This document shows, in pieces, positions 1 through 7,624 of a stretch of 7,624 nucleotides of DNA. Numbering within the stretch: position 1 is the stretch's first letter; every line of letters starts with the position of its first letter. The notes below the pieces were generated by a model. The model ran no database searches. It was not told where the DNA came from and worked only from the letters and a program-made list of their open reading frames with translations. Origin of the DNA: an uncultured Ruminococcus sp. (GTDB lineage: Bacteria; Bacillota_A; Clostridia; Oscillospirales; Acutalibacteraceae); assembly GCA_902773395.1 (NCBI GenBank), contig CACYEJ010000145.1, positions 1 through 7,624 of the forward strand. Reading direction: 5' to 3'. The position numbers and the translations under genes were made by a program.

Positions 1-40
1 ACAAAAAACAGAGGACAAACTCAATATGGCTCGTCCCCTA
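1..40 (-). terminator. Rho-independent terminator closing the operon
   Basis: On the minus strand, AGGGGAC (plus 33-39) pairs with GTCCTCT (plus 10-16), giving a 7-bp stem with one G-U wobble. The loop is about 16 bases and can close by a few more weak pairs. The stem is followed at once by TGTTTTTTG (the A-run at plus 1-9). It starts about 26 bases after the stop codon of the VWA gene. Stem plus U-tract in the right orientation fits intrinsic termination of the whole minus-strand gene set. Confidence 0.75.
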
Positions 41-65: not shown

Positions 66-1055
66 TCAACTGTTCAGATGATTCTTAGAAAAGAAATCAC
101 TCCAATCATTACAATTGGACAACGTCTTTATATTTTTATTATTGTCATCGCCGCCGATACTAAACACATTTACCTTTAATTCATCTCTCATCTGGCAATA
201 GCCATTAATAATATCATCTGAAAATGACTCTCCGTCAGTTATCATAACAATATTAAACGAGATATCTAAATTCGAATGATACACTGAATTAAAATCTCTA
301 ATCTCGTTAAACAATTTAAAGATAGTATCAAACGGATTGCATTTCACATTTCCGCCGGGATACTGTTCGATTTCCGAGATAGAATCCATTATACGGTTAG
401 TAGTGTCGCTGATAAACCTATTTTCTATTCTCACATAGCTCTCAGGCTTGCCGCCAAATGTTATTATAGAAAAGAACGTATCAGGAAATATCGCCGGTGT
501 CTTAAAAAAAAGCTTATTTATCAATTGACTTCGACGATTACAAAACTTAGTTTCATCAATCATGCCTGTATCAAAAAGCAAGCAAACCCACGACAGCTTC
601 TCATTAGTATTAGAAAAATACATGTTATACATATCTGTAACAGCGGAAATATTAATACCTTTTAGTCCGTCACTCAATTGAATATCACTGTCAGGGATTT
701 CTTCTTCAACTGAAAGAAAACATTTTTTTATCTTCATCGAAATCTCATTTTCATTGTTCACGAAAAATTGCAGCTTTAATAACGAATGATGTCCATAAAA
801 AACATAGTGTCTTTTAACCCTTACAGTGTAATATTCCTTTACTTTGGAATCTCCAACACGTTTATTCAATATTAAAATAAATGTAACTTCGTTTGCCGCT
901 TCACCGCTGTTATTAACAACTAGATATTTTTCCGACACGCCCGGAACTATGGAATTGTTTCTCAGCGACATAACTTTCATTTCTCTTATACCATTATCGG
1001 TATATCTGATAAACCCCAGAGAGTGAAACGAACCATCATTTGTAAATATTGTCAA
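66..1055 (-). CDS. VWA-domain protein, cytoplasmic, with degenerate MIDAS
   Basis: This 329-residue protein has no signal peptide or membrane segment, so it is probably cytoplasmic. Residues about 1-120 are beta-rich and not recognised. Residues about 155-320 read as a von Willebrand A fold: a first strand WVCLLFDTG, a strand FSIITFGG, a GGN turn, then the strand FNIVMITDGES with D274, and a final strand VNVFSIGG. The overall pattern resembles the stand-alone bacterial VWA proteins of TerY/YfbK type. The metal-ion site is altered. The usual DxSxS is D162-T-G-M-I, so both serines are replaced, and the usual loop threonine after GG is asparagine. Metal-dependent ligand binding may therefore be weak or absent. 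VWA domains normally mediate protein-protein contacts, so an adaptor role with the neighbouring tubulin-like and actin/Hsp70-like proteins is inferred. It is the last gene of the set. The start is taken as TTG at 1055, because the upstream GTG at 1062-1064 lies inside the Shine-Dalgarno sequence GAGGTG; starting at the GTG would add three residues. Confidence 0.75.
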   Translation of the reverse strand: MTIFTNDGSFHSLGFIRYTDNGIREMKVMSLRNNSIVPGVSEKYLVVNNSGEAANEVTFILILNKRVGDSKVKEYYTVRVKRHYVFYGHHSLLKLQFFVNNENEISMKIKKCFLSVEEEIPDSDIQLSDGLKGINISAVTDMYNMYFSNTNEKLSWVCLLFDTGMIDETKFCNRRSQLINKLFFKTPAIFPDTFFSIITFGGKPESYVRIENRFISDTTNRIMDSISEIEQYPGGNVKCNPFDTIFKLFNEIRDFNSVYHSNLDISFNIVMITDGESFSDDIINGYCQMRDELKVNVFSIGGDDNNKNIKTLSNCNDWSDFFSKNHLNS

Positions 1056-1061
1056 AAACAA

Positions 1062-1067
1062 CACCTC
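1062..1067 (-). promoter_or_regulatory. Ribosome binding site deciding the VWA gene start
   Basis: GAGGTG on the minus strand lies 6 bases before the TTG at 1055. The longest open frame would start at the GTG within this motif, but nothing upstream of that GTG resembles a Shine-Dalgarno site. The downstream TTG is therefore the better start. Confidence 0.55.
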
Positions 1068-1079
1068 GTTACTAAAGCA

Positions 1080-1102
1080 GCTTTACAATTTGCAAGTAAA
1101 GC
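1080..1102. repeat. Inverted repeat in the gap before the VWA gene
   Basis: GCTTTAC at 1080-1086 and GTAAAGC at 1096-1102 form a perfect 7-bp stem with a 9-base loop. It sits in the 78-base gap between the cohesin-like gene and the longest VWA frame, just upstream of the VWA ribosome binding site. No T-run follows on the minus strand, so it is not an obvious terminator. An RNA-processing or stability hairpin that sets a different expression level for the last gene is possible but unproven. Part of the stem overlaps a smaller alternative palindrome (AAAGCAGCTTT, 1074-1084). Confidence 0.45.
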
Positions 1103-1142
1103 CGAATTTGAATTTCTCATACTTTTCAGTTGAGTATATAAC

Positions 1143-1937
1143 CTACTTTTTTTTACTTAAAATTACCATCTGCAACGGACAAACAGAAACAGCAATCACT
1201 GAGAACACACCAAGAAATACAAGATATCCCATTGGAACACTATCATCTTTTGTATCTTTTTCTTCTTTGGAAGCTGTCGAAGATGTATCCTCACTCTTGT
1301 TTTTATCCTTATCGGACTTGTTTTCCTTTGAGGAGTTGTCATCTTCTTTTTCAGTTTTGTCGCTTTTTACAACCTCAATTGTTCCCTTTGCACTTATCGG
1401 AATTGTTAAATCGTCTGTACTGTTGTACACTTTGCTTCCATTTGAAATTTCAACTGTGTATTTCGTGCCAACTTTGGCATTTTCAGGAACAGTAAAATGA
1501 ACTGTAAAGAATTTATCAGTCTTTTCTGTATAAGTATAATTTTCCGAAATGTCGAGCTTTTTCTTTTTTAGCTCTTGATTGCCGTCGCCTTTGCCCCATA
1601 CTATCAAAGCTTGATTCTCTGAAAAATTGTAAAGAATATCATCAGCATTTTCTTTGATATATCCGCCAACACCGCAGGAAGCGTCAGGCGAAAGATCCTT
1701 ACAAGTCAATATTATTCTAAAACTAGAAATACCGTTTTTATTCTCAGTTAAATTTATAGGCACCTCAACAGTTTCACCTTGTGACGCTGTAACATCTCCA
1801 ACAGACATAGCAACTTCATCGCTGCCGAAGATATCTAGCCCCTCTGCATACGCATTAACAGCTAAATCGTTCGGAGCATAAACTACCGTAAAAAAACACC
1901 CTATAATTAAGAAAAAAATAACGACTCCCTTTTTCAT
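1143..1937 (-). CDS. Secreted membrane-anchored protein with cohesin-like ectodomain
   Basis: This 264-residue protein begins MKK followed by a hydrophobic stretch to about residue 21. The likely signal-peptidase site is AYA|E after residue 31. Residues about 40-190 resemble a cohesin or carbohydrate-binding-type beta sandwich: VGDVTASQGETVEVPINL, a strand ISSFRIILT, a middle segment NQALIVWGKGDG, and late strands FFTVHFTVPENAKVGTKY. These match the usual order of cohesin strands. The strand that in cohesins often reads YDxxxL is replaced here by a segment with two cysteines ten residues apart (C74, C84), which could form a disulfide outside the cell. Residues about 193-235 are a linker rich in K, E, D and S. 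Residues 238-260 form one transmembrane helix, followed by a SKKK tail. There is no LPXTG motif, so anchoring is by the membrane. The topology is ectodomain out with a tiny cytoplasmic tail. A strong AAGGGGA ribosome site lies 7 bases before the ATG. It follows the ATPase-like gene by 18 bases. The partner is unknown. Other Ig-like beta sandwiches are an alternative to cohesin. Confidence 0.8.
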   Translation of the reverse strand: MKKGVVIFFLIIGCFFTVVYAPNDLAVNAYAEGLDIFGSDEVAMSVGDVTASQGETVEVPINLTENKNGISSFRIILTCKDLSPDASCGVGGYIKENADDILYNFSENQALIVWGKGDGNQELKKKKLDISENYTYTEKTDKFFTVHFTVPENAKVGTKYTVEISNGSKVYNSTDDLTIPISAKGTIEVVKSDKTEKEDDNSSKENKSDKDKNKSEDTSSTASKEEKDTKDDSVPMGYLVFLGVFSVIAVSVCPLQMVILSKKK

Positions 1938-1944
1938 TGAAAAA

Positions 1945-1950
1945 TCCCCT
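1945..1950 (-). promoter_or_regulatory. Ribosome binding site of the cohesin-like gene
   Basis: AGGGGA on the minus strand, 7 bases before the ATG at 1937, is close to the anti-Shine-Dalgarno consensus. It lies in the 18-base gap after the stop codon of the ATPase-like gene and supports both the chosen start and co-transcription. Confidence 0.75.
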
Positions 1951-1955
1951 TCATT

Positions 1956-4900
1956 TTATAGCAGAGAAAACTCTTCTCCATAGCACTTAGAAAGCAGCTT
2001 GCAAGCTTCAATCATACAAAAGATAGAATCTAACATTTCCGGATAAATATCCGATACAGGACACATTAGCTGCATTGTACCATTAATTATTGAAAACGCT
2101 TCGTTGATTTCTATTGCAATATCAAAGCTATCACTGTTTTTAAAAGCACCTAGAAGCATCTTAGTCATATCTCGATTTGGCATATATTTGTTGATAGCAT
2201 CAACACAATACTTACAGAAATGCTTGTAATTTTTGATATTAAAAAGTTCGTTGATATTGCCTGCCGGTATTTCTGTAGCCTGTATAGACTCCTGCAAATC
2301 ATTTTCAGCTGCTAGCTTACGGTGTCCTCTGCTGTCTACACAGCTTATCTCCGATAAAGATTTCATGTAGGTTTTATTTGAATTATCTCCAATTTCAAGA
2401 CTGCATTGTGATAAATACTTCCTCATGCTGACCTCAGCTTTTTTCAAGAAGCCCTCATCTCCGGAAATAATTTTATCAGCGAAGTCAAAGCCTTTTGCAG
2501 CCACACCGTCAAAACGAATTTTCATTCTTCTTATATTTTTATTATCAGGCTGTTTAATTACCATATCAACGAAGTTATTCACAGTCTGAATCAATAAAGC
2601 ATATCTAAAAATAAGGTTCGCACAAAATTGAATACCCTCTGTACTAAAATCACACTCCGTATTAAAATCAACCATTTTAAGCAATTGAGCTAATACATTA
2701 TGCCAACTGTCATCTCTTGGGCAGCCTCTCCGTTTATTGTTCGGAAAGAACTTTTTACATAATTTTGATGCGATTTTCTCCGGATCATTTTCACTGCCAA
2801 TCTTCAAACGCTGCTTTGGCACGAATAACGAATTCCCACCAACTGCACCATACAAAAGCTTTTGTGCACTCGCTGCTGATTCACAGTGGCTAAGCATATC
2901 ATACACACACTGATACAACAAGTCCTTTCCTCCAAACTGAAACGACGAATATGCACACAGCTTCTTAGCTCCATTCATATCTGTAGATACAGCCGCCAAC
3001 TTAGTGAGCGTATGCCCTATTTCAACATTGACAAACAGCGTATCTATAGCATTTCCGATAGCTCCTGCCACCGAAACAACACCGTCATACAGTACAGACA
3101 TTTTTTCAGCGTGAAGCATATTTATGATTTCAATATCAAATACATTGTTTATAGACTTAATTACGCTATCCCATACACCCGCTGTAAATTCCACATACAG
3201 CTTTCCGGGAATAGACGGATAAACATACAGGTGGTTGCAGCCCTTATTTAGTGCGTGACACGCCGCCGTATAACATAGATTATATATAATTGCTTTTATA
3301 CATGATTCTGATTTCAAATCATTCTGTTGCTTCTGATATCCTTTTTCAAGAACATGCTTATCACAATCATATATTTTAAGTTTGCTCTGTTCAAATTCCA
3401 CCGCACTGTTTTTAAACGGCAGAAACGCACCATGATAAGGCGTAAAGTCTTTGATATCCACAATATTATCAAAATAAGATACCATATAAGTTGGAACCTG
3501 ATTGTGTGGAACAGAATCTTTGAAAATATTCATATAAGGCGAATAATACTTCAAATCATATTCCGCAAGCAGCAAACGAATTGTAGGAGTGCCTCCGGTA
3601 ATACTGTCATAATAAGGCTCACCATTTGACACTTTGTAACCCATTGAACACGTCTGACTTCCAAAGTCTACATATACCGACATATCAACATCTGTTGAAT
3701 TATCTATATTTGCAAGGTTAATCTCTGCCTTTACATTCTGGTCAAGCAGCACAGGACAAGTCTCTCCGTCTTTTCTCCGTACATTGACCACCGTACCAAG
3801 ATACATCTTATTCCAGATAACCTTTATCAAATGTCTGGGCTTTTCGACAGTGGATACATCAAATGTATAAAGATTACCATTTGAAATTTCCAAAGAAGAA
3901 TTATTTATTTCAGCAAAGCAATCAATACCTTCTTCAGATAATTTCACACAATTATTAAAATCAGTTATATCATCAAAGCTTTTAAGCATAGCCGCCCTAT
4001 TCGAGAAAAATGTATATTCATGGCACATTGACTCGTACTCAAAAGGCACATCAGGATACATACAAAATGTAGGCAGATGAGAAAGATACCAAATAGAACG
4101 GGCAGAGAAATCATGCGTTTCAGTAAAATGATACGGTACAGAAACATTTTTTCCGTTAGGACTTGTGAACGTAATATTATAAACGAAAGAGCCTGTCACG
4201 ACCGCCATATCAATACGGCTTTCTTCCGATTCAAGCTCAGCCGATTCCGACACGTTCATTGAAATACTTTTTACAATACATTTTCCCTTTTCAATCTCCT
4301 CTAATACAGCAGAATTAAAAGGATATAACGCATTAAGAAATTCATTCGAATATACAAAGTAAATCTTCTCGCTGAACATAGAAAGCGGTATATAATTTTG
4401 ATCCACGCAATAAAGTGAAATATTTCCAAATTCCTTAGCCGGCAATTCATCAAAGCCTCTCAAAGGGATATTGATATAAGCAAAGATTATGTCCTTTATC
4501 ATTTTCAAAGGCGATTCATCAGGCAAAGATCTCGCCGAAAGAAGCAGCAAAATCTTCTGTAGGTGTGATGTCTTCACAAAAAGATTTTTATTCAAATCAC
4601 CCGGCACATCAATCAGCTTGTGGTAGAAATCCTTCCACGGTGAATTCTCACCATCTTTTCTGATTACTTCTCTTGACGGAATTATAAAAAATCTTCTGGA
4701 ACAACAGCCTGCAACAGAACCATTGCTGTTTGTATCAAAATAATATACATTAAGACCATCTTCCAGTATATTCTCATTGCCAATGCAGTTATCATACTGA
4801 TCCGATATAGAAAGCTTATCTTTCCAAACTCTCAAATATGGTCTGTTGCCGGAAAAAGATAAATTTACAGGAGAAAAACTGTTGCCCGTATTACAGCCAT

Positions 4901-5180
4901 ACAGCATTACTGTAACAACCATAGAGAACCACATCAGCAAGGAAGGCGTTTCTTTGATTTTTTCCAATGTGTCGTCAATACCATAATAGCTGTAAGTTTT
5001 CCACAACGAGTTAATCGAACGGATAGTGCTGATGAAATGATCACTTCCGCCCCTGCCGTCACCTTTTAGGCAGATAGGTTCAATCATCTCTGCATACTCT
5101 TCGGTACTGTCTGCAACTTTATAAAATTGACCCGCCTTGTCGGAAATCACCTGGTCCCCAAGTATATTAGAAATAATCAA
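1956..5180 (-). CDS. Large protein with actin/Hsp70-like nucleotide-binding domain
   Basis: This 1074-residue protein has an unrecognised N-terminal half (about 1-495). That half is mostly beta-rich, with one hydrophobic stretch near 81-96 that is more likely a buried helix than a membrane anchor. From about 500 it reads as an actin/Hsp70-superfamily ATPase fold. The phosphate-1 loop is VYVDFGSQTC (D505, G507), comparable to DFGTTN in Hsp70. P655-S-I-P-G follows a strand where Hsp70/actin-like proteins often have a conserved proline. The phosphate-2 strand is FVNVEIGHT (E720, G722). FQFGGKDL (749 onward) resembles the FAGRD-type segment of this superfamily. IRFDGVAAKGF (888 onward) sits where the adenosine loop is expected. 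Phosphate 2 is degenerate: the usual aspartate is E720 and the GGGT run is GHT, so hydrolysis may be slow or lost. The last 150 residues are mainly helical. The length is well above Hsp70 (about 640) because of the N-terminal half. The start is TTG with AAAGGGTG 7 bases upstream; an in-frame stop lies just before, and the first internal methionine is residue 32. It lies 19 bases after the tubulin-like gene. The role is not known; a filament or chaperone-like partner of the tubulin-like protein is inferred. Confidence 0.75.
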   Translation of the reverse strand: MIISNILGDQVISDKAGQFYKVADSTEEYAEMIEPICLKGDGRGGSDHFISTIRSINSLWKTYSYYGIDDTLEKIKETPSLLMWFSMVVTVMLYGCNTGNSFSPVNLSFSGNRPYLRVWKDKLSISDQYDNCIGNENILEDGLNVYYFDTNSNGSVAGCCSRRFFIIPSREVIRKDGENSPWKDFYHKLIDVPGDLNKNLFVKTSHLQKILLLLSARSLPDESPLKMIKDIIFAYINIPLRGFDELPAKEFGNISLYCVDQNYIPLSMFSEKIYFVYSNEFLNALYPFNSAVLEEIEKGKCIVKSISMNVSESAELESEESRIDMAVVTGSFVYNITFTSPNGKNVSVPYHFTETHDFSARSIWYLSHLPTFCMYPDVPFEYESMCHEYTFFSNRAAMLKSFDDITDFNNCVKLSEEGIDCFAEINNSSLEISNGNLYTFDVSTVEKPRHLIKVIWNKMYLGTVVNVRRKDGETCPVLLDQNVKAEINLANIDNSTDVDMSVYVDFGSQTCSMGYKVSNGEPYYDSITGGTPTIRLLLAEYDLKYYSPYMNIFKDSVPHNQVPTYMVSYFDNIVDIKDFTPYHGAFLPFKNSAVEFEQSKLKIYDCDKHVLEKGYQKQQNDLKSESCIKAIIYNLCYTAACHALNKGCNHLYVYPSIPGKLYVEFTAGVWDSVIKSINNVFDIEIINMLHAEKMSVLYDGVVSVAGAIGNAIDTLFVNVEIGHTLTKLAAVSTDMNGAKKLCAYSSFQFGGKDLLYQCVYDMLSHCESAASAQKLLYGAVGGNSLFVPKQRLKIGSENDPEKIASKLCKKFFPNNKRRGCPRDDSWHNVLAQLLKMVDFNTECDFSTEGIQFCANLIFRYALLIQTVNNFVDMVIKQPDNKNIRRMKIRFDGVAAKGFDFADKIISGDEGFLKKAEVSMRKYLSQCSLEIGDNSNKTYMKSLSEISCVDSRGHRKLAAENDLQESIQATEIPAGNINELFNIKNYKHFCKYCVDAINKYMPNRDMTKMLLGAFKNSDSFDIAIEINEAFSIINGTMQLMCPVSDIYPEMLDSIFCMIEACKLLSKCYGEEFSLL

Positions 5181-5187
5181 TTTGTGT

Positions 5188-5195
5188 CACCCTTT
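5188..5195 (-). promoter_or_regulatory. Ribosome binding site supporting a TTG start
   Basis: AAAGGGTG on the minus strand lies 7 bases before TTG at 5180. An in-frame TGA sits within it and no ATG or GTG is available in frame before residue 32, so the TTG start is well supported. The site lies entirely in the 19-base gap after the tubulin-like gene. Confidence 0.7.
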
Positions 5196-5199
5196 AAAA

Positions 5200-6894
5200 T
5201 TACTTTACTATCGTTTCTGCCAACATCATAGTATGACGTATTATTTTATTGCAGAAAATAGTACCGTCATCTGAGCTAAACTGCTCCACATCCGGAAATT
5301 TTTTCATATATTCTTGAAGATGCTCGTTTAAACGTCCAAGCATCATATCTCTATCAAAACCATCTATCGACTTTATCATTTTTACAAGTATTGAAAATGC
5401 GTATTCAGACAAACTTCCGGCACCCGAATGTCTTGTATTAAATCTAAGAATCTTATACGTAATGTCGTCTACAATACCTCGTGTATCTCCCGGAAACAAA
5501 TTTGTCATATCAGATTTATCGTCTATTTCATTCAACGCAATAAGTGTATTTCGCACTATTGTTTTTAGAAAAATATTAATATTATCTAATGCTTTTAAAG
5601 ATAGATTTGCTTTAGCTTCATCGGACATTCCTTTTGTTTTCTTGCCAAAAATACCTTTAAAAAATCCGCCGGAATTGACGGGAGCATTTTCAGGCACCTC
5701 ATTCAAAAGCAAAGCATCGTGTACATAATAGGTCATTAAAGCTGCCATTACGATAAAGATCCAGTAATGCTTCATACACGATTCATTGAACAATGTGTGA
5801 GAAGCAAAGATATTACCGGAAGAATTACCGAAGGCATAAACGGCACCATCTTTATAATCGCCGTTATTTACCAGAATTTCTCTTATCGACAATCCGTTAA
5901 TCAGATTAGATATATGCAGCCAATGCTTCTGTTCCTTAGGCTGATATTCATTAGAAGTAACATCGTATTCGAGCAATTTTTTTCCGTCTGTTTTAATATT
6001 AATAAACGTTGCATTGACCTTTGATATATCCGAATACAATCTGTCAAGAAAACGGGACGCATAAAAATTCGGATCAAGATTCGAAAGCTTATACTGATCA
6101 TTTACGACAATATTCCAATATTCATCGAGAGCATCGAGATTCTCCTGATGCAGTACAAATTGTTCAAGTGACGGATTGAAAGAAAGCAGCTTATTTTTCA
6201 CCGTAGGAATATCAAAAATATCAAAACCTTTTTTTAACTCAGGAAAATTTATATAAATTTCAGGGTGAGGTATTGTAAGATTAAACTCAAACTTCGTTGA
6301 CGGACCCGATATGACCATATAGCGATGCACCCGATGATCAGGGGGAATATAAGAATTCTCCATAGGAATAAATGTGGTGGCAGTGCCGCCGCCACGGTAG
6401 CCACCACAATTTATTGTAATAACATCACCGTTAGGAATACCGTCATAGAGCTTGCGAAAAAAGGTATCATTTTCGCCTGAATAGAAGATTTCACCCAACC
6501 ACGGCTTACCGTAAATACCGTTTTCTATATCAAGGCTGATATCCTCTTGTGTGCAGCCAAGCGAGAGCAGCGGATTGTTCGCATACTTAGTGTACACTGA
6601 CGTACTGTTACGGCAATCCACCACATCATAAATGGTTATATCGTCACATACCAGCTCAGGCTTTTTATCATACATGATCTCATAGTAATCAGTATACATT
6701 TTTGCAAAGCTAAGTGCACGTCCGTAATCAGTAGTTACACGATCCTCTGTCTTGTATTCAAGGTCTAATATTCTCACATGAACTTTTTCACCAGCATTCA
6801 CAACGCCGCTGAACATACCAAGTGCACCCATAATAAACACAGCTGTAGAGGAAAGTACGCCTTCTCCTCCCCAGGCATTTATCAACGATTCCAT
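5200..6894 (-). CDS. Divergent tubulin/FtsZ-superfamily protein
   Basis: This 564-residue protein shows the GTP-binding layout of the tubulin/FtsZ superfamily. The first strand runs into a glycine loop, LINAWGGEGV (G9, G10, G12; loop T1), followed by a hydrophobic helix to about residue 29. A second strand, VHVRILDLEY, ends in acidic residues as at loop T2. Later comes the strand DVITINCG and the signature loop GGGTATT (168-174; T4), which corresponds to GGGTGTG or GGTGAA in relatives. NLD at 272-274, about 104 residues after T4, could be a T7-like loop, but the second acidic residue that completes NxDxxD is missing, so catalysis on polymerisation is uncertain. A hydrophobic segment at about 376-396 may be a buried helix or may touch the membrane. 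The C-terminal 160 residues are helical and carry a GK-rich linker near 405-420. It is longer than FtsZ (about 380) and recalls the tubulin-like families found with VWA proteins. The ATG is preceded at once by an in-frame TGA, which fixes the start; the ribosome site (GGATG) is weak. It lies 31 bases after the repeat-protein gene and 19 before the ATPase-like gene. Confidence 0.75.
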   Translation of the reverse strand: MESLINAWGGEGVLSSTAVFIMGALGMFSGVVNAGEKVHVRILDLEYKTEDRVTTDYGRALSFAKMYTDYYEIMYDKKPELVCDDITIYDVVDCRNSTSVYTKYANNPLLSLGCTQEDISLDIENGIYGKPWLGEIFYSGENDTFFRKLYDGIPNGDVITINCGGYRGGGTATTFIPMENSYIPPDHRVHRYMVISGPSTKFEFNLTIPHPEIYINFPELKKGFDIFDIPTVKNKLLSFNPSLEQFVLHQENLDALDEYWNIVVNDQYKLSNLDPNFYASRFLDRLYSDISKVNATFINIKTDGKKLLEYDVTSNEYQPKEQKHWLHISNLINGLSIREILVNNGDYKDGAVYAFGNSSGNIFASHTLFNESCMKHYWIFIVMAALMTYYVHDALLLNEVPENAPVNSGGFFKGIFGKKTKGMSDEAKANLSLKALDNINIFLKTIVRNTLIALNEIDDKSDMTNLFPGDTRGIVDDITYKILRFNTRHSGAGSLSEYAFSILVKMIKSIDGFDRDMMLGRLNEHLQEYMKKFPDVEQFSSDDGTIFCNKIIRHTMMLAETIVK

Positions 6895-6925
6895 TCATTT
6901 CACATCCATTATTAAATAGGTAATA

Positions 6926-7624
6926 CTACATAATTTTGCCACGTTTGACAATATTGTACATATCATCCACCTTGCAGTAGATAATACGATTATCCAACGT
7001 AATATTATTATGATCACACTCATACACATCTTGATGAATATAACGCTCATTAAAGTTAGTTATCTTATTTGGCAGAACTTCATTATCAGAAGTGAGAATA
7101 TATGCGGAACTCTCATCAGAAACAAGATCCATACGTCCTGTTACAACATTGAATTGTAAGTAAGTTGGGTTATTCTCTCGCAAAGACCTAACAAGCTTAA
7201 ACATATCTCCCAATGAGCAGGAATCATCATTCGGTTTAATTTCCTGAACCTCTTCCGCCGGTTGTTCCGAAACAGCCGGAGTAGGCTTAGATTCATTCGC
7301 TGCATTAGGAAAGATTACCTCTGCACTAACCTGATTTGCATTTTCTCTAACAATAGCAGAATTTTGTACGGGAGGAGTAACCGTTCCTACCAATGTATTA
7401 TCATCCGGCACATCTGACTGAGATAACGTCTGATTATTTTGATTCTGAGTTCCCATACCCTGCATATTATTGCTTCCATAATTAAATGCTTGATTCTGAG
7501 CTCCCATACCCTGCATATTATTGCTGCCATGATTAAATGCTTGATTCTGAGCTCCTATACCCTGCATATTACTGTTACCATGATTAAACGCTTGATTCTG
7601 AGCTCCTATACCCTGCATATTACT
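6926..7624 (-). CDS. Q/N-rich tandem-repeat protein, 5' end missing
   Basis: The frame is open to the right edge of the window, so the N-terminus is not seen; 232 residues are visible. Three full copies and one partial copy of a 17-residue unit, MQG(I/M)GAQNQAFN(H/Y)G followed by three S/N residues, occupy the visible N-terminal part. The unit is rich in Gln, Asn and Gly and has no charged residues except histidine. Then comes an extended, probably disordered linker with Pro, Glu and Thr (VTPP, TPAVSEQPAEE). The last 100 residues, from about SLGDMFKLVRSL to the stop, look like a small folded alpha/beta domain that I do not recognise. There is no transmembrane segment in the visible part. Q/N-rich repeats of this kind are flexible and can self-associate, so a scaffold or assembly role for the downstream tubulin-like and ATPase-like proteins is possible but only inferred. 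The stop is TAG, and the tubulin-like gene begins 31 bases later. Confidence 0.7.
   Translation of the reverse strand, partial: SNMQGIGAQNQAFNHGNSNMQGIGAQNQAFNHGSNNMQGMGAQNQAFNYGSNNMQGMGTQNQNNQTLSQSDVPDDNTLVGTVTPPVQNSAIVRENANQVSAEVIFPNAANESKPTPAVSEQPAEEVQEIKPNDDSCSLGDMFKLVRSLRENNPTYLQFNVVTGRMDLVSDESSAYILTSDNEVLPNKITNFNERYIHQDVYECDHNNITLDNRIIYCKVDDMYNIVKRGKIM
7439..7624 (-). repeat. 51-bp tandem repeat inside the Q/N-rich gene
   Basis: Units at 7568-7618, 7517-7567 and 7466-7516 are each exactly 51 bases, with a decayed fourth unit at about 7439-7465. The six bases at the right edge (encoding Ser-Asn) match the end of a further unit, so the array continues outside. Copies differ at only a few positions (ATA/ATG, CAT/TAT, AGT/AAT order), which keeps the reading frame and indicates recent expansion by slippage or recombination. 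Confidence 0.9.

Follow-up and report, generated by a model that had tools for sequence, protein, structure and literature searches.

Paired tubulin-like and actin/Hsp70-like genes in a ruminococcal operon with membrane and surface-domain proteins

Gene organization of the window

The DNA considered here is contig CACYEJ010000145.1 of an uncultured Ruminococcus sp. The whole stretch of 7,624 nt is referred to as the window. It carries five open reading frames (ORFs), all on the minus strand, which encode in gene order a protein with a glutamine/asparagine (Q/N)-rich linker (protein A), a tubulin-like protein (TubL), an actin/Hsp70-like protein (ActL), a cohesin protein and a VWA protein. Comparison with related loci places these genes in a larger operon. 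By this comparison, the window covers the later half of an operon with two TubL/ActL pairs, and it is cut inside protein A.

The intergenic gaps are, in gene order, 31, 19, 18, and 78 nt, and the last gene is followed by an intrinsic terminator whose 66-nt region has a folding energy of -17.6 kcal/mol (z -3.0). The VWA gene more plausibly starts at the TTG at 1055, 6 nt behind GAGGTG, than at the GTG at 1064. Pfam cut-offs are passed in the window by the cohesin domain (26.7 bits, cut-off 24.1) and the VWA domain (25.3 bits, cut-off 23.8) alone, both narrowly. No Rfam match and no tRNA was found in the window. The original prediction, made from the sequence of this window, had described five close-set co-directional genes ending in a terminator, a VWA protein, a one-pass cohesin-like protein, and a Q/N-rich repeat, and each of these was recovered (Table 1). 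It overlooked that the operon comprises two tubulin-like/actin-like pairs, that an adaptor protein has the Q/N-rich stretch as its linker, and that the metal motif of the window VWA protein is degenerate.

Table 1. Features of the window.
Feature	Position	Strand	Description and basis
Protein A	6926..7624	minus	Open at window edge, 5' end outside; BLAST homologues and hydropathy
Q/N-rich repeat	7439..7622	minus	51-bp unit, 3.6 copies; Tandem Repeats Finder
Adaptor domain of protein A	6929..7246	minus	Residues 127-232 of open frame; profile of six protein A rows
TubL-2	5200..6894	minus	564 aa; tubulin-fold protein (predicted), second pair
FtsZ/tubulin-like core of TubL	5761..6894	minus	Residues 1-378; span of VIA-align rows
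TubL glycine loop INCGGYRGGGTATTFIP	6364..6414	minus	Residues 161-177, place of FtsZ T4 loop; conserved block
ActL-2	1956..5180	minus	TTG start, 1074 aa; second pair; C-terminal actin/Hsp70-fold domain; model, fold matches, tree
Actin/Hsp70-fold domain of ActL	2301..3698	minus	Residues 495-960; fold matches, motif table; phosphate motifs degenerate in window copy
Cohesin protein	1143..1937	minus	One-pass: signal-like segment, cohesin domain, C-terminal hydrophobic segment; Pfam and hydropathy
Cohesin domain	1371..1814	minus	Residues 42-189; PF00963, 26.7 bits
VWA protein	66..1064	minus	Soluble; likely start TTG 1055; PF00092 and alignment
Intrinsic terminator behind VWA gene	9..40	minus	12-pair stem and T run (read 40-9)

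The two-pair operon and its distribution

The full operon is seen in the related loci L001 and L002, each with nine co-directional genes: lipoprotein, four-helix membrane protein, TubL-1, ActL-1, protein A, TubL-2, ActL-2, cohesin protein, and VWA protein. Fourteen of the 16 gaps in these two loci are shorter than 100 nt, the remaining two being 154 and 281 nt. The gene for protein A is incomplete in the window, so the operon continues beyond it, and because the window corresponds to the operon from protein A onward, a first pair (TubL-1/ActL-1) is predicted upstream of the window edge, together with the four-helix protein and the lipoprotein. A protein identical to the window ActL (P0025) is listed on a 17.3-kb contig. 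The first gene of the operon encodes a conserved lipoprotein-like protein without a Pfam match (L001:940-2715, L002:346-2136, L006:7267-9441).

The pairing of TubL with ActL is constant. ActL lies directly 3' of TubL in all 10 TubL genes with a visible 3' neighbour, from six ruminococcal genomes (the count omits L003 TubL-2 and L007 TubL-1, both cut by contig ends). All six carriers have two TubL genes; in G004 one of the two lies divided between two contigs, and in G006 one was matched in two pieces. Protein A directly follows ActL-1 wherever that place is visible (5/5; L001, L002, L003, L005, and L006). The order in L007 is TubL-2, ActL-2, TubL-1. Maximum-likelihood trees, computed for TubL after removal of four near-duplicates, separate a TubL-1 clade (10 of 28 rows) and an ActL-1 clade (5 of 13 rows), both at 100/100. 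The window proteins fall in the second pair, nearest to P0007/P0026 and then to L001.

The genes behind ActL-2 are less constant. Cohesin and VWA genes stand there in three of five visible loci (L001, L002, and L004) and are absent from L007 and L005/L032; in the last, their place is taken by a protein of 218 aa that has two hydrophobic segments. We class the cohesin and VWA genes as accessories of the operon. Thus, when it was asked whether tubulin-like genes occur without the partner genes named by the original prediction, the ActL partnership stood and the cohesin/VWA set did not hold throughout.

TubL has 18 distinct database homologues with 28-76% identity which, together with the recurring gene order, make the operon more than chance. 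A species-level scan (one genome per species, 84,980 species), built on two short conserved patterns that degenerate copies can escape, confirmed seven loci in six genomes. Further sampling found TubL in 1 of 396 genomes of one family (the seed itself), in 4 of 38 genomes of one genus (one match, G428, being weak at E 1.9e-4), and in 3 of 22 genomes of another. The carriers are labelled Oscillospiraceae, Ruminococcus, or Clostridiales metagenome-assembled genomes, one of them from roe deer rumen; 'RUG' in their labels presumably stands for rumen uncultured genome.

TubL and ActL

The predicted structure of TubL has the tubulin-superfamily GTPase-domain fold. Past residue 378, in the place of the FtsZ C-terminal domain, comes a helical bundle, and the fold matches cover mainly residues 1-378. 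The bundle opens with a strongly hydrophobic helix (window 5704-5760, residues 379-397), which could be a buried helix or a membrane contact. At the place corresponding to the FtsZ T4 signature GGGTG(S/T)G, TubL has GGGTA[TAS]T. The glycine loops of TubL and FtsZ are in register in a profile alignment that is not itself significant (E 0.33). GGGTA is kept in all 10 TubL-1 rows and in 14 of 18 distinct TubL-2 rows; the loop is broken in L005 TubL-2, L007 TubL-2, P0019, and P0021.

The model of ActL-2 (predicted local distance difference test score, pLDDT, 77.6) has the two-lobed actin/Hsp70 ATPase fold. Both folds claimed by the original prediction are therefore found in the predicted structures, and its claim that a single operon joins the two to VWA and membrane partners stands; the inside-to-outside layout it added is kept below as a conditional proposal. 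Each of the 50 matches that Foldseek lists for ActL is the ATPase domain of an Hsp70-family protein or a complex containing one. In VIA-align the top rank goes to MreB, with DnaK/Hsp70 no more than 1 Z away, so the fold cannot decide between actin and Hsp70 kinship. FtsA is not among the 50 VIA-align rows listed, which excludes nothing. Sequence comparisons give a marginal score against the MreB profile (E 6e-4, probability 29%) and, among 13 ActL rows, no Pfam match to FtsA, SHS2, or Hsp70 families. A possible kinship with SrfB found no backing in 147 genomes (0/147), but 14 controls were equally silent; none of the 13 ActL rows matches SrfB in Pfam. A profile search for further ActL proteins returned four from 7987 candidates scored.

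Three motifs of ActL were compared, which we take to be its phosphate-1, phosphate-2, and adenosine motifs. Phosphate-2 is canonical in all five ActL-1 rows and in L005 and L007 ActL-2, degenerate (VEIGH) in the window, P0026, and L001 ActL-2, and intermediate in the other three ActL-2 rows. It appears that motif loss alternates in the second pair: it affects the tubulin side in L005 and L007 and the actin side in the window and L001. In the few genomes available, one partner or the other of the second pair tends toward motif loss, and the first pair retains both. All five ActL-1 proteins end in FGG, and ActL-2 is without this ending (alignment; L001:5168-8671, L002:4771-8343, L003:3499-5886, L005:2645-6214, L006:11877-15416). 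In L003 (2270-5886) ActL-1 lies in two overlapping frames (2270-3598 and 3499-5886), as an assembly error or a decayed gene would produce.

Ordinary FtsZ (5/6), DnaK (6/6), and MreB (6/6) are kept by the carriers as separate copies. The TubL/ActL pair is thus an extra system, and a misread ordinary FtsZ, MreB, or DnaK is ruled out.

Membrane and surface proteins

Protein A combines the Q/N-rich linker with a C-terminal adaptor domain of ~105 aa that is common to all six protein A rows; its homologues in L001, L002, L003, L005, and L006 were found by BLAST (E 1e-25 to 1e-7). By hydropathy, four of these five relatives have an N-terminal membrane helix and L005 has none; the window copy is cut. 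In L002 the cohesin protein, too, carries the adaptor domain, in its inner tail (i-E 2.7e-5).

As judged by hydropathy alone, the cohesin protein of the window has a signal-like segment at its N terminus and a single hydrophobic segment at its C terminus. Its cohesin domain weakly matches the cohesin of an anchoring scaffoldin (4uyp, cellulosomal scaffoldin anchoring protein C; E 0.0044). The likeness to such scaffoldins lies in a cohesin-type domain on a surface-bound protein and in the presence of dockerins in carriers. Differences are the weakness of the similarity, the position of the membrane anchor beside a tubulin-like/actin-like pair, and the finding that TubL-negative congeners have dockerins as well.

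BLAST finds a related VWA gene in L001, L002, and L004 (E 3e-35 and 6e-31 for the L002 and L004 proteins against the window protein) and none in L005/L032. No membrane segment is seen in the VWA protein of the window or of L001. Its counterparts in L002 and L004 have a membrane helix, followed by a C-type lectin (E 3.6e-7) or discoidin-type domain (E 1.3e-25, 2e-7). The VWA region of L002 weakly matches VWA_2 (E 0.021). The first motif of the metal-ion-dependent adhesion site is intact in L001 (DTSMS) and L002 (DTSLS), not intact in L004, and degenerate in the window (DTGMI), where a metal-dependent VWA contact is thus unlikely.

Dockerin matches number 27-105 and cohesin matches 2-12 per carrier in the six carriers, so possible ligands for a membrane cohesin exist. 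A large scaffoldin, a frame of 2844 aa that matches cohesin many times, is encoded in one carrier (G002:C81:113890-119070). A sampled control (first ten contigs, at most 20 kb each, with a profile from four dockerins) gave 9, 8, 3, and 1 dockerin-like ORFs in 169, 120, 105, and 115 kb of four TubL-negative congeners, and 3 and 1 in 135 and 103 kb of two carriers. The congeners are at least as dockerin-rich as the carriers in this sample, and specificity for the cellulosome was dropped: dockerins are genus-wide and hence no marker of the TubL/ActL system. A cellulosome link is possible, not specific, and dockerin binding is putative.

A proposed membrane-tethered assembly

FtsZ and FtsA are a tubulin-fold and an actin-fold protein that work as a couple. 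By analogy with them, the operon could encode a membrane-tethered assembly of cytoskeletal type, in which two TubL/ActL pairs position surface-binding proteins; we regard this as about an even bet. It is built on the predicted folds, the pairing, the gene order, the duplication, the hydrophobic segments, and the types of ectodomain. A submembrane assembly that protein A tethers would agree with the fixed TubL-ActL neighbourhood, the duplication, the occurrence alongside FtsZ, MreB, and DnaK, and the membrane and surface components. The protein upstream of TubL-1, with four membrane helices by hydropathy, supports the proposal as well, as does the adaptor domain common to protein A and the L002 cohesin protein.

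In such a layout, TubL would bind nucleotide and assemble beneath the membrane, and ActL, its constant neighbour, would regulate or tether the TubL assembly, as FtsA does for FtsZ. Protein A, with its membrane helix in most relatives, flexible linker, and adaptor domain, could tie the assembly to the membrane. One-pass proteins carrying a cohesin or, in relatives, a C-type lectin or discoidin domain behind a VWA-type module would couple it to the outside, so that an inner scaffold may cluster or position outer binding sites. The likeness to FtsZ-FtsA is that tubulin-fold and actin-fold proteins are encoded together, with action at the membrane. TubL and ActL differ from that couple in sequence, in their C-terminal domains, in the N-terminal 490 residues of ActL, and in their duplication, and their carriers have an ordinary FtsZ in addition (5/6).

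Several points weigh against this proposal. TubL and ActL are tied to their superfamilies only by predicted structure, without a sequence link, and searches of PDB sequences matched no tubulin and no actin. The T4 loop of TubL reads GGGTA, not GGGTG, no T7 catalytic loop was located in it, and the motifs of the window ActL-2 are degenerate. Two of the five visible loci are without cohesin and VWA genes. Where cohesin proteins are present in relatives they were grouped by BLAST: the Pfam cohesin scores are under the cut-off in L001 (19.5 bits) and L004 (22.6 bits), and L002 has no match. The L004 VWA region matches no VWA family, and the adaptor domain in the tail of the L004 cohesin protein is not significant (E 0.93). 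The system is also rare, with 7 loci in the species scan. We infer nucleotide binding, polymerisation, TubL-ActL contact, tethering, and a surface role.

A more specific version can be offered tentatively, and we think it rather unlikely to hold in full. TubL/ActL may be a bacterial cytoskeletal couple of its own kind, apart from FtsZ-FtsA and from GTPase-centred tubulin systems, in which one pair keeps its nucleotide motifs and the other loses them in one partner. Through the shared adaptor domain the assembly might then grip, from within the envelope, exchangeable extracellular modules (cohesin, C-type lectin, or discoidin), arranging plant-fibre-binding or cellulosome-docking sites on rumen bacteria. 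Both families are unrecognised by Pfam, fixed neighbours, duplicated, and encoded beside surface-binding domains. If the couple assembles, it would add an independent instance of tubulin-fold and actin-fold proteins cooperating, and would offer a testable account of how a monoderm could arrange adhesins or docking sites for cellulosomes from inside. As a natural experiment, the alternating loss of motifs for nucleotide would bear on which subunit must hydrolyse.

Relation to other tubulin-containing systems

The original prediction regarded the operon as a distinct version of a proposed membrane-remodelling system of FtsZ-like and VWA proteins, here taken as the FtsZl1 (Tubulin_2)-VWA system. 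In the available text of Makarova and Koonin (2010, PMC2875224), FtsZl1 occurs with VWA, GTPase, kinase, and OmpA genes, the associated GTPase is frequent and not universal, and membrane remodelling is a prediction. The two systems share a divergent tubulin fold with a helical, non-FtsZ C-terminal part, a VWA gene, membrane proteins, and a host FtsZ besides. In contrast to FtsZl1-VWA systems, TubL loci have a constant actin/Hsp70-like partner, two pairs, and cohesin, lectin, or discoidin ectodomains, and are without a PF13809 (in TubL), GTPase, OmpA, or kinase match. PF13809 matched none of 19 TubL rows, nor anything in the three carriers tested (G002, G003, and G004; G001, G005, and G006 were left out). 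A profile comparison of TubL with 17 FtsZl1 rows gave E 0.35, whereas FtsZl1 against FtsZ, run alike, gave 2.8e-6. Pfam scans that covered the window and the relatives examined showed no GTPase family (for the TubL-1 and VWA proteins of L001, PADLOC alone was searched). With no sequence link to FtsZl1/Tubulin_2 and no GTPase found, the claimed membership was not borne out.

A system for membrane remodelling or vesicle formation in the sense of Makarova and Koonin, in which the membrane is bent or pushed outward by TubL assemblies under the control of VWA and cohesin proteins, would account for a tubulin fold, a VWA protein, and membrane proteins in one operon, as in the FtsZl1 operons described in the available text of PMC2875224. 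We consider it unlikely, as TubL lies outside Tubulin_2 by Pfam and profile comparison, no GTPase was found, and remodelling is itself only predicted in that text. True PF13809 FtsZl1 genes stand next to a VWA gene in two TubL-free congeners, G411 (L030) and G402 (L031); L031 also has a GTPase-like gene (MMR_HSR1 over the cut-off, DO-GTPase2 under it).

The GAP1-N2 systems (eLife 2020, PMC7159879) are GTPase-centred. According to the available text, some firmicute operons among them have two tubulin and two vWA genes, others have HSP70, the tubulin and HSP70 themes do not overlap, and assembly near the membrane is proposed. The two tubulin genes and the vWA and membrane parts of those firmicute versions resemble the present operon, which differs in that both folds are fixed neighbours and that Pfam scans covering the window and the relatives examined recovered neither a GTPase nor a GAP1 gene. 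A system of this sort, serving conflict or stress response, in which damage or invasion triggers a tubulin-like and Hsp70-like assembly with VWA and surface domains as sensors, would suit these parallels and the patchy distribution of TubL. It is nevertheless improbable: the scans gave no known effector either, the two themes are separate in the text of PMC7159879, and PADLOC gave no match at E 0.01 for nine L001 proteins and one weak match (E 0.018) among the five of the window.

Least probable of the three is that ActL is a chaperone-like Hsp70 relative folding or delivering surface proteins and TubL a non-polymerising nucleotide switch, a reading that the listed Foldseek matches and the helical bundle in place of the FtsZ C-terminal domain favour, and that the first rank of MreB in VIA-align (with DnaK/Hsp70 within 1 Z), the lack of Hsp70 families in Pfam among the ActL rows, and the duplicated pairing, which would suit assembly subunits better than a soluble chaperone, speak against.

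The portion of an FtsZ/tubulin evolution study that is available (PMC9871819) gives Tubulin_2 as the divergent group and nothing resembling TubL, and no description of the operon appeared in literature listings of open-licence papers.

Possible mobile origin

Origin from a phage or plasmid was rejected: 86 pattern matches in viral_contigs yielded 0 confirmed by tblastn, and plasmids gave 0 relatives. In a viral fold library the best three matches are phage tubulins, but at E 0.075-0.1. An integrase-like ORF, recognised by eye at a contig end (L003:1-399) and directed away from the operon, is the sole pointer to a mobile origin.

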